This document shows, in pieces, positions 21,501 through 27,676 of a stretch of 32,628 nt of DNA (positions are counted from its first letter, which is position 1; every line of letters begins with the position of its first letter). Source of the DNA: Phycisphaerales bacterium. GTDB lineage: Bacteria > Planctomycetota > Phycisphaerae > Tepidisphaerales > Tepidisphaeraceae. The notes below the pieces were generated by a model. The model was given only the letters and a program-made list of their open reading frames with translations. It searched no databases and was not told the DNA's origin. The stretch lies in the NCBI GenBank assembly GCA_020847545.1, contig JADLBV010000023.1:1-32628 (forward strand), given 5' to 3'. The translations under genes and the position numbers were made by a program.

Positions 21501-22871
21501 ATGGGAAACCCGGTTTTTGGCGGCTTGGCGACTGGTTCAAATCGTGGTGTTGTTGTGACGGACCCGCAAAACACAATCTCGCGCGAAGTCTCCTTTTCCG
21601 GCCGGGGTTTATTCTCCGGCGAAGAGGCGACCCTCACCCTTTCGCCCGCCGAGGCGGATGCGGGAATCACCTTCGTCCGTGAACAGGATGGCCGCAGCGC
21701 CACCATCCCGGCACTGGTCCAAAACGTCCTCAAACGCCCACGACGCACCTGCCTGCGCAACGGCACACTCTTCGTCGAAACCATCGAACATTGCATGGCG
21801 GCACTGGCCGGCCTGGGAGTGGATAACGCCATCGTCAAAGTCACCGGCGGCGCGGTCGGCGAAATCCCCGGCGGCGATGGCAGCTCACAGGCATTCGTTC
21901 AGGCCATCCAGGACGCCGGCTTAAAACCCCTCGCCTCACCCCGCCAACCTCTGGTCATCAAACGCCCCATTCAGGTCAACCAGAACGATGCCACGCTGAC
22001 CGCCTTGCCCGGCCCAAGTGATTGTCTGGAAATCATTTACGACTTTGAGGCCCCCGCTCCGGTTGGCCGACAGATTTTCGCCTTTCGGCTGGGTAATGAT
22101 GATTTTGTCACCCAACTCGCCCCCGCACGAACATTCGTATTTGAAGCCGAAGCCCGTGAACTTCGAGCGCGGGGCATGGGCCAACACCTCTCCCCCAAAG
22201 AATTGCTGGTGATCTCCCCGCAGGGTCCAATCGACAATACGTTTCGCTTCGCCGATGAATGTGTGCGCCACAAGGTGCTGGACCTGATCGGCGATCTCTA
22301 TCTGGTCGGCCGACCCATTCGCGGCCGAATCATCGCCTATAAAAGCGGCCATTCGCTTAACCACTTGCTGGCAAAGCGTTTACTGGAACAGCAGGAACAA
22401 ACCGACCGCGAGGCGTTGCTCTCGCGGGATGCCGTGCTGGACATTCGCCGAATCCAGCGCATCCTCCCCCACCGCTATCCCATGCTGCTGGTGGATCGCG
22501 TCTTGCGGATCGAAGGGGACCAAAAGGCGATTGGCATCAAAAACGTCACATTCAACGACATCTTCTTCCAAGGCCACTATCCCGGCACGCCGATCATGCC
22601 GGGGGTGTTGATCGTCGAGGCGATGGCGCAACTCGGCGGCATCCTGCTCAGCCAGAAGCTGGAACACACCGGAAAACTTGCGGTCCTGCTCAGTATGGAT
22701 AAGGTGAAGATGCGAAATCCGGTCGTGCCGGGCGATCAATTGATCCTGGAAGCCCTGACCGTGCGCGTCAAAAGCCGCACCGGTCATGTTCGTTGCAAAG
22801 CGTTTGTGGGAGAGAAGTTAGCCGCCGAAGCGGACATTAAGTTCATGCTGGTCGACGCCGAACCGGTATAA
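21501..22871 (+). CDS. lpxC-fabZ: LpxC-FabZ fusion: UDP-acyl-GlcNAc deacetylase / hydroxyacyl-ACP dehydratase
   Basis: 456 aa, two enzymes in one chain. Residues about 25-300 are LpxC, the zinc deacetylase of the committed lipid A step. Visible are TIEHCMAALAGLGVDNA (His97 as zinc ligand, Glu96 as general base), VRHKVLDLIGDL (His257, Asp261) and YKSGHSLNH (His284 as acid). Residues about 315-452 are FabZ: RYPMLLVDRV and GHYPGTPIMPGVLIVEAMAQ, with His359 and Glu373 catalytic. The same fusion is known in Bacteroidetes and some other Gram-negative phyla. The start is uncertain: ATG 21501 leaves almost no leader after the TATAAT at 21481, and GTG 21555 gives a more usual LpxC N-terminus. lpxA follows after 21 nt. 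Confidence 0.93.
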   Translation: MGNPVFGGLATGSNRGVVVTDPQNTISREVSFSGRGLFSGEEATLTLSPAEADAGITFVREQDGRSATIPALVQNVLKRPRRTCLRNGTLFVETIEHCMAALAGLGVDNAIVKVTGGAVGEIPGGDGSSQAFVQAIQDAGLKPLASPRQPLVIKRPIQVNQNDATLTALPGPSDCLEIIYDFEAPAPVGRQIFAFRLGNDDFVTQLAPARTFVFEAEARELRARGMGQHLSPKELLVISPQGPIDNTFRFADECVRHKVLDLIGDLYLVGRPIRGRIIAYKSGHSLNHLLAKRLLEQQEQTDREALLSRDAVLDIRRIQRILPHRYPMLLVDRVLRIEGDQKAIGIKNVTFNDIFFQGHYPGTPIMPGVLIVEAMAQLGGILLSQKLEHTGKLAVLLSMDKVKMRNPVVPGDQLILEALTVRVKSRTGHVRCKAFVGEKLAAEADIKFMLVDAEPV

Positions 22872-22892: not shown

Positions 22893-23702
22893 ATGCCAAA
22901 GATATCGCCCCTAGCCGTGATTGATCCGCAGGCCAAACTGGCCGACGATGTGGAAGTCGGTCCATTTTGCGTCATCGGCCCGCAGGTCACGGTGGGGGCC
23001 GGCTGTCGGCTGATCAACAACGTCACGCTGCGGGGTGTCACCACCATCGGCAGTGGCAATCTGTTCCATCCCAACTGCGTCATCGGCGATGCGCCACAGG
23101 ACAAAAAGTATAAAGGCGCCCCCACCCGCCTGGAAATGGGCAACGACAACATCATCCGCGAAGCGGTGACGATCCACACCGGCACCGAAAAAGGGGGAAG
23201 CGTCACGCGGGTTGGCAACAACAACCTCCTGATGGTCAATGCCCACCTCGGCCATGATGTGCAACTGGGGTCCAATTGCATCCTGGCGAACAATGTCATG
23301 GTCGCGGGGCATGTGGTGATCGGCGATTCGGTGGCGATCATGGGGGGTGTGGGGATTCATCATTTTGTCACCGTCGGCGATTTCGCCTATCTGGGAGCCT
23401 ATTCGCGGGTTCATCACGATGTCCCCCCGTTTTTGAAGGTGGATGGATCCGATCAGGTGCGGGGATTGAATTCAGTCGGTTTGAAACGCGCCGGCTTTTC
23501 CGATGCCGACATCGAGGCGCTGGAAGAAGCCTGTCGGGAACTTTTTTATCGCGACAAACCCTTTTCGGTGGCCATGGCCGAACTCGCCTCCGGCAACGGC
23601 GCCACCCCTCCCAACCCCCACGTCCAACGACTGGTGCAATTCCTGCGCAAACGCGACCAGGGCCGACAAGGGCGCTTCCTCGAAAGTCTGCGTCCCAAAT
23701 AA
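22893..23702 (+). CDS. lpxA: LpxA acyl-ACP--UDP-GlcNAc O-acyltransferase
   Basis: 269 aa, normal for LpxA. The first about 190 residues form the left-handed beta helix of hexapeptide repeats, for example VGPFCVIGPQVTVGAGCRL and VGNNNLLMVNAHLGHDVQLG. In the latter, NAHLGHD contains the catalytic histidine, here His121, equivalent to His125 of E. coli. The GDAPQDKKYKG loop is conserved in the family. The last about 80 residues are the helical trimer domain (NSVGLKRAGFSDADIEAL). The enzyme performs the first lipid A step in the cytoplasm, adding a hydroxyacyl chain from ACP to UDP-GlcNAc. It directly follows lpxC-fabZ and precedes the RNase P RNA gene. Confidence 0.94.
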   Translation: MPKISPLAVIDPQAKLADDVEVGPFCVIGPQVTVGAGCRLINNVTLRGVTTIGSGNLFHPNCVIGDAPQDKKYKGAPTRLEMGNDNIIREAVTIHTGTEKGGSVTRVGNNNLLMVNAHLGHDVQLGSNCILANNVMVAGHVVIGDSVAIMGGVGIHHFVTVGDFAYLGAYSRVHHDVPPFLKVDGSDQVRGLNSVGLKRAGFSDADIEALEEACRELFYRDKPFSVAMAELASGNGATPPNPHVQRLVQFLRKRDQGRQGRFLESLRPK

Positions 23703-23750: not shown

Positions 23751-24170
23751 TCGCGGCGGGCGCGGCGGTCGCGCCGGAGATTTCTCCGGTGAGGAAAGTC
23801 CGAACTGCCCAGGGCACGGTGCTTGATAACATCAAGGCGGAACAAGCGACGCCGGCTTGCCGGCCCGCCCAAACCGACGGAAAGTGCAACAGAAAAAATA
23901 CCGCCGCGCCTCGTCGCGGTAAGGGTGAAATGGTGCGGTAAGAGCGCACCGCGCCGATGGTGACATCGACGGCATGGCAAACCCCACCGGCAGCAAGACC
24001 AAATATGCGGAGAGGGTTCTATCCAGCCCGCGCAACGGCCCGTTGCGCCATCATCCGCGGGTAGGTCGCTTGAGGTTTCGAGCAATCGAAATCCCAGAGA
24101 AATGACCGCCTCCCCTGATCCTTTTTAAGGACCAGCGGGAAACAGAATTCGGCTTACCGCCCCGCCGCGA
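23751..24170 (+). ncRNA. rnpB: RNase P RNA, bacterial type A
   Basis: About 420 nt. The ends pair: TCGCGGCGGG (23751-23760) with CCCGCCGCGA (24161-24170), the P1 helix. A P3-like hairpin (CCGGAG/CTCCGG, 23774-23789) is followed by the highly conserved GAGGAAAGTCCGAAC (23791-23805). The 3' conserved block ACAGAATTCGGCTTAC (24142-24157) precedes the P1 strand. An AGAGGGTTCTATCCAGCCC-like segment near 24011 fits the P15 region that binds the tRNA CCA end. The molecule is the catalytic subunit that cleaves pre-tRNA leaders. No protein-coding gene fits this stretch. Confidence 0.95.
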
Positions 24171-24180
24171 TAAAAATCAA

Positions 24181-24291: not shown

Positions 24292-25155
24292 ATGACCAAC
24301 CCATTTTCCAAACCATTCATCACATTTGTTGTCATGGCCTCCATCTCAACCATCGCCCTTGCGCGCCCATCATCCAGAGAGCCGCTTCCCAAGGGCACGC
24401 GCGTGGACCGCGACGTTTCCTACGGCTCCGATCCCGCACAGAAGATGGATGTTTATTCTCCCCAGGATGCCAAGGACGCCCCCGTCATTTTCATGGTTCA
24501 CGGCGGCGGCTGGCGGCGCGGCGACAAGGCCTACCCCAATGTCTACACCAACAAGGTCGCACACTGGATTCCAAAGGGATTCATCTTCATCTCCATCAAC
24601 TACCGAATGCTCCCGGATGCCAACCCGATCGAACAGGCCGATGATGTCGCCAAGGCCCTGGCATACGCGCAGGAACATGCCAAATCATGGGGCGCCGACC
24701 CCGCCCGATTCATCCTCATGGGCCATTCCGCCGGCGCCCATCTCGTCGCCCTCATCACCGCAGACCCCACCATTGCCACCCACCAAGGCGCAAAACCGTG
24801 GCTCGGCACCATCCCCCTCGACAGCGCCGCCTATGATGTCGTCTCCATCATGGAACATCGCCACTTTGAACTCTATGACCAGGCGTTCGGCAAAAACCGC
24901 GATTTCTGGGAAAAGGCATCCCCCACCCATCGCCTCAAATCCGCCACCGTCCCCATGCTGCTGGTCTGTTCCAGCCGCCGAATCCTCTCCCAAGCCAACG
25001 CAAAAGCCTTCGCCGAAAAAGACCATTCCCTCGGCGGCAAGGCCACCCTCCTCCCCCAAGACCTCTCCCACGGCCAAATCAACGCCGAACTCGGCCTACC
25101 CGGCGCGTACACCGACAAGGTCGATGAATTCATCCATTCACTTTTATCCAAATAA
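24292..25155 (+). CDS. Secreted alpha/beta hydrolase (esterase family)
   Basis: 287 aa with an N-terminal signal peptide (FITFVVMASISTIALA). The BD-FAE/carboxylesterase-like fold shows the oxyanion motif HGGGWRRGDKA (from His70), a SINYRMLPDA segment, and the nucleophile elbow MGHSAGAH with Ser146. The C-terminal LSHGQIN contains a plausible catalytic histidine at 260. The acid residue is less clear: the usual position after the CSS strand has RRILS. GGAG lies 8 nt before the ATG. Exported members cleave acyl or feruloyl/acetyl esters from polysaccharides or small esters; the substrate is not readable. It stands alone between the RNase P terminator and the convergent small gene. Confidence 0.85.
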   Translation: MTNPFSKPFITFVVMASISTIALARPSSREPLPKGTRVDRDVSYGSDPAQKMDVYSPQDAKDAPVIFMVHGGGWRRGDKAYPNVYTNKVAHWIPKGFIFISINYRMLPDANPIEQADDVAKALAYAQEHAKSWGADPARFILMGHSAGAHLVALITADPTIATHQGAKPWLGTIPLDSAAYDVVSIMEHRHFELYDQAFGKNRDFWEKASPTHRLKSATVPMLLVCSSRRILSQANAKAFAEKDHSLGGKATLLPQDLSHGQINAELGLPGAYTDKVDEFIHSLLSK

Positions 25156-25185
25156 CGAAGTAATCGAGGCTTGCCCCCCGCCTCT

Positions 25186-25332
25186 TTATACCGATGCGCC
25201 GCTCAAATGATGGCCATGCGGAAATACAATTGTGAAATAAACCACCACCAGCGCGATAATCCACAAGGCCAATACCACGCACAGTGTCACAAAAAGTTTT
25301 TTATGCGGCTTTAGGACAGGCGTATTTGACAT
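25186..25332 (-). CDS. 48-aa single-span membrane protein
   Basis: An ATG at 25332 opens a 48-codon frame ending in TAA at 25186. The product is MSNTPVLKPHKK, then one strong transmembrane helix (LFVTLCVVLALWIIALVVVY), then a short His-rich end FPHGHHLSGASV. The positive-inside rule predicts the basic N-terminus in the cytoplasm and the His-rich end outside. It starts 33 nt after the stop of the Minf_1886-family gene on the same strand, so it is probably co-transcribed. The ribosome-binding site is weak. The hydropathy pattern argues for a real gene; its function is unknown. Confidence 0.55.
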   Translation of the reverse strand: MSNTPVLKPHKKLFVTLCVVLALWIIALVVVYFTIVFPHGHHLSGASV

Positions 25333-25365
25333 TTAAGTACAGCTTATAAAAGAATTTATATTAAA

Positions 25366-25776
25366 TTACGCCGACCCTTTGGAGATGCGGTAGTCCGCCT
25401 CAAAGACGGCCCCAAAATCATATACATTGCGAAAATCTTCTACCGTATCCTCATCCGTTTTACGAAGCACCCCATTATCCACCAATGCGAAGACAATCCG
25501 CCCAAAATCCATCGTGCAGGTGATGTTCCAGCGTTTGAGGACCGTGCGGGCCAATAATCCCCACTGGGACAAGGCTAAATCCCGCAAACCTTCGCACAAT
25601 TGTGTGCCGCTGACGTGGCGGTTGAGTTCCGGGTCGGGGTTGTCCCCGTGCAGCTTTTTGACGGTAAAACCAAGCCCCTGTTGCACAAAAACAAAGGCCT
25701 CCACGGGGTAAACCCCGGTCTCTTCAACAATCTGCTGAAGGGTCTTGGAAGGGGCAGGCTCGTCCAGATCGGCCAT
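25366..25776 (-). CDS. Minf_1886 family conserved protein
   Basis: 136 aa from ATG 25776; in-frame ATG 25851 would give 161 aa, but relatives begin with an acidic helix close to the later start. I recognise the family from TLQQIVEETGVYPVEAFVFV, the central HVSGTQLCEGLRDLALSQWG, LLARTVLKRWNI and the end KTDEDTVEDFRNVYDF. It is a conserved cytoplasmic family known to me only from Planctomycetes, Verrucomicrobia and relatives, with no established function. That restricted spread supports the PVC assignment. It diverges from the TolC-like gene and is followed by the 48-aa membrane protein. Confidence 0.82.
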   Translation of the reverse strand: MADLDEPAPSKTLQQIVEETGVYPVEAFVFVQQGLGFTVKKLHGDNPDPELNRHVSGTQLCEGLRDLALSQWGLLARTVLKRWNITCTMDFGRIVFALVDNGVLRKTDEDTVEDFRNVYDFGAVFEADYRISKGSA

Positions 25777-25881
25777 ATCCCAGTAATTTACCACGCATTC
25801 GCCCCTTCCGCCAAGACTGGTATTTTGGGCGTCGAGTGGATTTTTCAGCAAATAAATGTCGATTTTAAGGCTATAAGGTGG

Positions 25882-25909: not shown

Positions 25910-25945
25910 GCGCCACGCATGAACCCAAGGATGGAGCGATTGTCG

Positions 25946-27676
25946 ATGCGAAAATTCTTCCAGTCATCCGGTCTTTGTCTCTCGGCCGTGCTTTTGGCCG
26001 CCGGATGCAAAGTCACCGAACCGACCCCCTTCAGCCCCCAACTGCTGCAACAGTCCGAACGCAGTCATTCCAGCGAAGTGGTCACCCAAAACATGCGCCC
26101 CCTCCCCACCACGCTGGAAAGCCCCTTCCCCGGTCGGGATGGCAAATCCCCCTCCTCACAACCGACCACCGGCCCATCAACCATCCCCGCCCAGACCCGT
26201 CGGATGACCCTTCAGGAGATCGTTCATCGCGCCGTCGCCAACAACTATGATGTGCGCGTCGCCGGCTACAACACGGCCATCGACGAAACCCGCGTTGTCG
26301 AGGCGGAGGCCGCCTTCGATCCGGTCTTTTTCGCCAATGGCCAACACGAACGCCGCGACAATGTCGTTCCCGGCACTGTTTATGCCCCTCCCGGCAGCAG
26401 CACGCCGGTCTTCACCAACGTCGATCAGGCCAGCATCACCTCCGCCGCCGCCGGCATCCGCCAGAACCTGACCAGCGGCGGGCAGATTCAGGTGCAATAC
26501 CAGACCGCCTACAACCATCTGAACCCCCCGCGTTATTCGATCAACAACTATTGGGAAAACAACCTCGTGCTGGAATTGACCCAGCCCCTGCTGCGTGATT
26601 TCGGCAGCACCGTCAACAAGGCGCGCATCACCGTCTCGCGGCAAAACCAGCGTATCAGCCTGCTCGATTTCCGTCTGGCGCTGGTGAAAAACATCGCCGA
26701 GATCGAACAAACCTACTGGCAATTGTCCGCCGCCGAACGGGATGTGAGGATTCAGGAGGAACTGCTCAAGCGCACCGAGGACACCGCCATCATTCTGGAC
26801 AAGCGTCGTCGGCAGGATGTCACGCGATTGCAGGTGTCGCAGGCGGATGCGGCCGTCCAGTCGCGCCGGGCCGCGCTGGTGCGGGCCAAGGCGCGCATCC
26901 GCGACCTCTCCGACCAACTCAAGCAATTGATGAACGATGCGGATTTCCCGATCACCAGCGCCCTGGTGATCCTGCCAGCCGATGCCCCGGCCGAGTCGCC
27001 GATCCATTTCGATCTGCAGGACCAGATCGAAACCGCCATGGAAAACCGCGCCGAACTGGGCCAGCAGCAACTCCGCGTCGATACCGCATCGGTGGTGGTG
27101 CAGGTGGCCAAGAACAACCTGTTGCCGCAATTGAATTTGGTCGGTTCGGTCGGCGCACAGGGATTGGGCGGCAATTTTGACAATGCGGTCGACGTGCAGA
27201 GCGATTTTGATCACATCGGCTACCGCATCGGCCTGCAACTGGAAATTCCCATCGGCAACCGCGCCGCCCGCGCCGCCTATCGTCGAAGCTGGCTGCAACG
27301 CCAACAGGCGATCGACACCTACGCCTCGCTGGTTTCCAAGGTCGCCTTGGAAGTCAAACAGGCCCAGCGCGAAGTGCAGACAAGCTGGGATGAAATGGTC
27401 GCCACCCGCCAGGCCCGCTTCGCCCAGGCGGATGCCCTGCTGGCATTGCAACAACGCGAAGACAATGGCGAAGCACTCACCCCCACCTTCGTGCAGTTAA
27501 AGCTCGACACCCAGGCCAATCTGGCCAACGCCCAGCGCGCTGAATCAACCGCGCTGACCAATTACAACCTCTCCATCGTCAACCTCGAACGCACCAAGGG
27601 AACGCTGCTGCGATACAACAACATCCTGATGGATGAAGCCACGCCGCAGTACGCAACCCGTCAGGTGGAACGATAA
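25946..27676 (+). CDS. TolC-family outer membrane efflux lipoprotein
   Basis: 576 aa from ATG 25946, chosen because GGAG lies 9 nt upstream and the predicted transcript begins near 25916. The lipoprotein signal ends in the lipobox LLAAGC with Cys21 as the lipidated residue. Two outer-membrane-efflux repeats follow, with long coiled-coil helices (ERDVRIQEELLKRTEDTAII; EVKQAQREVQTSWDEM), separated by beta-strand segments such as LVLELTQPLLRDFGSTVNKA. TolC-like channels join inner-membrane pumps or secretion systems to the outer membrane. No pump or membrane-fusion gene is adjacent, so its partner is elsewhere. An FHA-GAF-histidine kinase gene begins 73 nt downstream. Confidence 0.88.
   Translation: MRKFFQSSGLCLSAVLLAAGCKVTEPTPFSPQLLQQSERSHSSEVVTQNMRPLPTTLESPFPGRDGKSPSSQPTTGPSTIPAQTRRMTLQEIVHRAVANNYDVRVAGYNTAIDETRVVEAEAAFDPVFFANGQHERRDNVVPGTVYAPPGSSTPVFTNVDQASITSAAAGIRQNLTSGGQIQVQYQTAYNHLNPPRYSINNYWENNLVLELTQPLLRDFGSTVNKARITVSRQNQRISLLDFRLALVKNIAEIEQTYWQLSAAERDVRIQEELLKRTEDTAIILDKRRRQDVTRLQVSQADAAVQSRRAALVRAKARIRDLSDQLKQLMNDADFPITSALVILPADAPAESPIHFDLQDQIETAMENRAELGQQQLRVDTASVVVQVAKNNLLPQLNLVGSVGAQGLGGNFDNAVDVQSDFDHIGYRIGLQLEIPIGNRAARAAYRRSWLQRQQAIDTYASLVSKVALEVKQAQREVQTSWDEMVATRQARFAQADALLALQQREDNGEALTPTFVQLKLDTQANLANAQRAESTALTNYNLSIVNLERTKGTLLRYNNILMDEATPQYATRQVER

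Follow-up and report, generated by a model that had tools for sequence, protein, structure and literature searches.

A conserved gene for a predicted small membrane protein accompanies Minf_1886 in one class of Planctomycetota

Which protein, if any, works together with Minf_1886 is the question raised by the locus described here. Minf_1886, named in 2008, is presented as the closest candidate for a signature gene of Verrucomicrobia and Planctomycetes and as absent from Chlamydiae (PMC2474590). A full-text literature search with the names Minf_1886, TIGR04138 and Plancto_Ver_chp retrieved no paper besides this one, and no partner of Minf_1886 was found in the portions of text returned by such name-based searches. 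In the window, by which we mean the whole stretch of 32,628 nucleotides analyzed, a short frame lies behind a Minf_1886-family gene, and the original prediction, which called the frame unlisted, held that its product could be a functional partner of this family if the pair were conserved. Here, we asked whether the frame is a gene, how far it accompanies Minf_1886, and which role its product may have.

The small frame and its position behind Minf_1886

The Minf_1886 gene lies on the minus strand, within an open frame at 25851..25366. This frame is a clear member of the TIGR04138 family, with a score of 126.2 bits (cut-off, 60; E 7.1e-37) and a match spanning positions 2-121 of the 123 in the profile. 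Translation of this gene probably begins with an ATG at 25776, since the same-genus relative (L060) carries a stop codon just 5' of the aligned part; the coding region would then be 25776..25366 (136 aa).

The small frame runs from an ATG at 25332 down to 25186, stop codon included, and encodes 48 amino acids. The original prediction had placed it exactly and had named no strand; it is the minus strand, as the plus-strand reading of 25186..25332 contains two stops and an ORF exists only on the minus strand. Likewise, the predicted distance of 33 nt to the Minf_1886 stop was confirmed by the junction sequences. This spacer (25333..25365, minus strand) is AT-rich, and no obvious Shine-Dalgarno sequence was found in it by eye. 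The protein has a single hydrophobic segment, with a 19-residue Kyte-Doolittle mean of 3.18, in agreement with the one transmembrane helix that had been predicted.

The frame was then compared between the window's genome (G000) and a same-genus genome (G009) that is 84% identical. By the Nei-Gojobori method, pN was 0.14 vs. a pS of 0.76, and the differences at codon positions 1, 2 and 3 numbered 11, 6 and 26, respectively. The small frame is under purifying selection. Its protein is single-copy in the window's genome, where the next match had an E value of 0.65 and fell inside a 520-aa frame.

With regard to the surroundings, a divergent gene for an OEP outer membrane efflux protein (PF02321, Pfam match; 25919..27676, plus strand) precedes the pair, and a convergent esterase-like gene (Pfam search; 24292-25155, plus strand) follows it. 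Judging by these orientations, Minf_1886 and the small gene would make up a separate unit of two genes on the minus strand. The small gene would encode a small inner-membrane protein that is presumably co-expressed with Minf_1886. Further along, a bacterial class A RNase P RNA gene (Rfam RF00010, 284.4 bits) is found upstream of the esterase-like gene at 23752-24173 on the plus strand. An open frame of 456 aa (21501-22871, plus strand) may be an LpxC-FabZ fusion, and the frame that comes next, at 22893, is putatively LpxA-like. We also observed a 294-aa open frame (24326-25210, plus strand) that overlaps the esterase-like gene on the same strand in another reading frame and is most likely a GC-rich artefact.

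Reach of the pair in the order, class and phylum

Adjacency was scored in the window's order, which among the genomes drawn consists of the window's family; 26 genomes were searched, two gave no Minf_1886 match, and 24 loci were obtained. We defined strict adjacency as a same-strand frame of 30-120 aa that has a hydrophobic 19-mer and starts within -20 to +60 nt of the Minf_1886 stop. Such a frame followed Minf_1886 at 22 of the 24 loci, compared to 3/158 for the control, i.e., other long frames at the same loci. The two loci lacking a small gene next to Minf_1886 were those of G012 and G017, and both stayed negative when the loci were read again. A 4-nt overlap of the start codon with the Minf_1886 stop was seen in 15 of the 22 small genes; in the window and in its relative from the same genus, spacers of 33 and 48 nt, respectively, separate the two genes.

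Tight junctions with overlapping start and stop codons would also suit a regulatory small frame, where the act of translation matters, e.g., by stabilizing or terminating the Minf_1886 message, and the product is irrelevant. We consider this improbable. The amino acids were kept between the same-genus genomes while synonymous sites approached saturation, several families have sequence motifs in common, and in the window's genus a gap of 33-48 nt takes the place of the overlap.

To cover the class, a 38-position profile of the small protein (A4, 32 rows) was searched through 178 whole class genomes; Minf_1886 itself was looked for with TIGR04138 in an independently run search, again of 178 class genomes drawn in the same way, and was present in 173. 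Among the genomes left out of profile building, 25 had a best match at E<=1e-3, and in 18 of these it lay within 2 kb 3' of Minf_1886 on the same strand. Given 2 kb in a genome of about 4 Mb, a random same-strand match in that interval would be expected in well under 0.1% of cases. The seven held-out exceptions were G239, G265, G045 and G268, all from family f14, together with G017, G042 and G161; in G161 a second match (E 0.025) is linked to Minf_1886.

Altogether, the linked pair was found in at least 60 of the 173 Minf_1886-bearing class genomes, a lower bound, with a minority of the other 113 read by eye. By family, linked pairs occurred in 16/18 genomes of f1, 20/23 of f10, 9/10 of f3, 7/7 of f68, 4/4 of f11, 2/2 of f2, 1/2 of f7 and 1/2 of f73. 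This total includes five genomes (G250, G162, G277, G192 and G211) where the pair was recognized solely by eye at the locus and scored weakly (E 0.0044 to 4.9), four (G181, G166, G201 and G253) with genome-wide E values of 0.03-0.13, and G003, where the pair was seen at the locus and the class profile search did not report the linked match. In the f10 genomes G034, G176 and G246, no linked small gene was found on reading. The small gene of the two f2 genomes starts 184 and 221 nt past the Minf_1886 stop.

In the first sample, strict adjacency for class families outside the order amounted to 5/35 loci (control, 6/193). A plain lack of the small gene in these families was partly rejected as an explanation, since the gene was found behind an AI-2E permease gene or, in f14, apart from Minf_1886. 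Outside the class, adjacency was seen at 1/80 loci, about the control rate of 4/445, and the idea of a small gene behind Minf_1886 throughout the phylum was rejected on this ground. In the lone outside-class case (G078), the frame is 103 aa long, has two hydrophobic stretches and is not matched by the profile. Likewise, at E<=0.01 the small-protein profile matched none of the 92 genomes searched from the rest of the phylum, though 81 of them hold Minf_1886; this search comprised 99 genomes, in which the window's own genome was the sole match and six further class members had none. The small protein is therefore a class-restricted accessory and no universal partner of Minf_1886, which does without it elsewhere.

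These surveys downstream of other Minf_1886 genes, which the original prediction had called for, were positive in that similar frames stand beside orthologues in the order and in part of the class. The proposed conservation of the pair holds within these limits; it does not extend beyond the class, and in f14 the two genes are separated. Selection, position, shared sequence and the blind profile search led us to take the frame as a gene: 25332..25186 is a real, conserved gene, beyond chance. The short length of 48 aa would suit a chance frame, an explanation that is contradicted by the class profile search, by selection and by adjacency and that we regard as practically dismissed. The size and the single hydrophobic helix are also all that would speak for a type I-like system in which the small protein is a hydrophobic toxin. 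This is very improbable, given that the window's genome has one copy and that the gene is kept beside one particular gene across many genera.

Sequence features and affiliation of the small protein

An alignment delimited a family core at 25219..25314 (minus strand; ends chosen by eye), in which a basic/proline stretch, LKPHKK in the window, precedes the predicted transmembrane helix with its W(x3)L motif, followed by YFTIVFP at the exit. Members from the order share the basic/proline stretch right before the helix, and [LFMP]KP was present in 17 of the 22 alignment rows. One tryptophan is present in every one of the 32 rows of A4, and a leucine four residues further on is almost invariant. 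The pre-helix stretch reads LKPRR in the order and DGIPDR, APYGT..PRR or WEKELAPK in other families. The original prediction had also pointed to a His-rich end: three histidines do occur in the window and in its same-genus relative, and with 0 or 1 histidine in the other 20 order members this is no feature of the family.

To relate the two sets of proteins, the order profile was aligned with the other-family profile by hhalign, which gave a probability of 93.7% over 24 columns. When 24,300 frames were ranked with a profile built free of the order, the top positions were taken by seven training members, four other non-order frames and eight order frames before the first stray appeared. From these profile matches, the small proteins of the order and of the other families appear to be homologous; scores are soft for such short hydrophobic sequences, and position and motif agree with them.

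The positive-inside rule is an established rule for membrane topology. Lysine plus arginine were more numerous in the N-side flank than in the C-side flank in 26 of 29 proteins, the other 3 having the same number on both sides, and by this rule the N-flank excess predicts an N-in/C-out topology.

In searches of family collections, the small protein matched no Pfam-A family above the gathering cut-off and no NCBIfam family. DUF7536 (PF24380), at E 0.04 and 14.6 bits, below its curated cut-off of 27, was taken as chance hydrophobic similarity, and it did not come up when the 32 core sequences were scanned at E<=0.5. At the same threshold, no Pfam family was matched by more than two of the core sequences (best E 0.0072), and no NCBIfam model was matched above its cut-off, the best (E 0.0039, two members) being a TAT signal model. 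A search of the small-protein profile against PDB sequences gave nothing at E<=10. The neighbouring gene is a member of TIGR04138, a family to which the small protein does not belong. The small protein forms a profile-definable family with a recurrent neighbour and without Pfam or NCBIfam coverage.

Small single-span proteins such as CydX and KdpF are encoded in the operons of their partners. CydX and AcrZ are described as proteins of tens of residues with one helix that work with a larger partner (PMC4325964, PMC6005532, PMC7267776). The small protein resembles CydX, KdpF and AcrZ in its size, in its single helix and in the work with a larger partner that is proposed here, a likeness of kind with no membership claimed. 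With its short one-helix frame and its conserved place beside a candidate partner gene, it would fit the operon-coupled small single-span membrane proteins, which are a kind and no homology family. It differs from these examples in that the proposed partner, Minf_1886, is soluble and no membrane complex.

Gene neighbours and candidate roles

We also analyzed Minf_1886 itself. No strongly hydrophobic segment was found in it across 170 loci, the top 19-mer mean being 1.56, and no natural fusion with the small protein occurred among these loci. An AlphaFold2 model computed from a 10-row alignment (A3) was helical, with a mean pLDDT of 73.8 and core blocks mostly at 84-94. Neither Foldseek (best E 1.5) nor VIA-align (best Z 5.2) gave a usable or convincing PDB fold match for this model; the top VIA-align match, which would point to winged-helix proteins of the MukE type, was chain 9gm7_D from a MukBEF entry (rmsd 4.0, 78 aligned). 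The best hit of a PDB sequence search with Minf_1886 (E 0.38) was an unrelated dehydrogenase and was rejected.

Our main reading, to which we assign a probability of about 40%, is that the small protein crosses the membrane once, N-terminus in, and tethers the soluble, helical protein Minf_1886 or serves it as an adaptor, with Minf_1886 docking at the pre-helix stretch. The start/stop overlap has the geometry of translational coupling, by which the two proteins would be made together in matched amounts. The short pre-helix stretch would face the cytoplasm and serve as a docking peptide for Minf_1886, and the small protein may in this way tether or recruit Minf_1886 to the inner membrane.

The neighbours of the two genes bear on this reading. 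Frames around Minf_1886 were picked by length and some lay in a wrong frame, which weakens the following counts: at 139 loci (L069-L206 and the window), the same-strand frames directly 5' of Minf_1886 (n=90) comprised 35 metG (methionyl-tRNA synthetase), 23 holB (DNA polymerase III delta prime) and 20 PSP1 genes, 21 of the 66 same-strand frames on the 3' side encoded an AI-2E transporter, a count that may be low, and among the 52 neighbouring frames in the order OEP was the commonest family (13) and metG accounted for 3. The metG, holB and PSP1 genes that usually stand upstream suggest that Minf_1886 takes part in a basic cytoplasmic process. In the order, Minf_1886 lies mostly outside this setting and the small gene is still beside it; that the small gene was kept with Minf_1886 although the metG setting was mostly lost argues for a working pair.

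In nine genomes (G031 of f7, G035 and G052 of f11, and six of the seven f68 genomes), the small gene was located about 1-1.4 kb further on, with an AI-2E gene in between. All nine intervening frames (L097, L101, L118, L212-L215, L238 and L239) matched PF01594 with 162-212 bits, and in four of them (L214, L215, L238 and L239) there is a 4-nt overlap between the AI-2E start and the Minf_1886 stop. In these genomes the gene after Minf_1886 thus encodes a membrane protein too, which would fit a membrane-side role for Minf_1886.

The same placement, with the permease gene lying between the two others in f7, f11 and f68, fits equally well a different explanation: the small protein would be a genuine, conserved membrane protein that serves the envelope, with an AI-2E permease, a glycosyltransferase-like enzyme or outer-membrane export, and Minf_1886 would be a mere positional neighbour. 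The prominence of OEP genes in the order favours this as well, as does f14, where no Minf_1886 gene was found in the 6-7 kb around the small gene (G045, G239, G265 and G268; L207-L210). In these four genomes, the small gene is flanked by a DUF1573-type gene, so labelled by Pfam at L207 and by blastp relatedness at the other three loci, and by a gene of about 600 aa, relatives of which also come after the small gene in f3 and f68. Of the ten genes of about 580-877 aa found after the small gene in f3, f68 and f14, all except that of G197 were interrelated by blastp, and three of the five scanned matched the glycosyltransferase-like PF13524. The separation in f14 argues against an obligate pair. 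However, Minf_1886 is a neighbour in all eight families (f1, f2, f3, f7, f10, f11, f68 and f73), whereas the AI-2E, ~600-aa and OEP genes were each seen as neighbours in some families only, and the 4-nt overlaps in the order are with Minf_1886. An envelope role is in our view a serious possibility, though short of probable.

A further, bolder variant would make Minf_1886 a nucleic-acid-associated, helical, winged-helix-like protein of the metG/holB/PSP1 neighbourhood that acts at the inner membrane, elsewhere next to an AI-2E-type permease and in the class pinned there by a dedicated small membrane protein of about 40-120 residues. We consider it unlikely; if true, planctomycetes would have an as yet unrecognized module that keeps a replication- or translation-linked process at the membrane.

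With this recurrent neighbour, Minf_1886 gains a concrete candidate partner in the class and with it a testable question, namely whether it is located at the membrane and whether this depends on the small protein. The metG/holB/PSP1 neighbourhood offers a second lead on what Minf_1886 may do.
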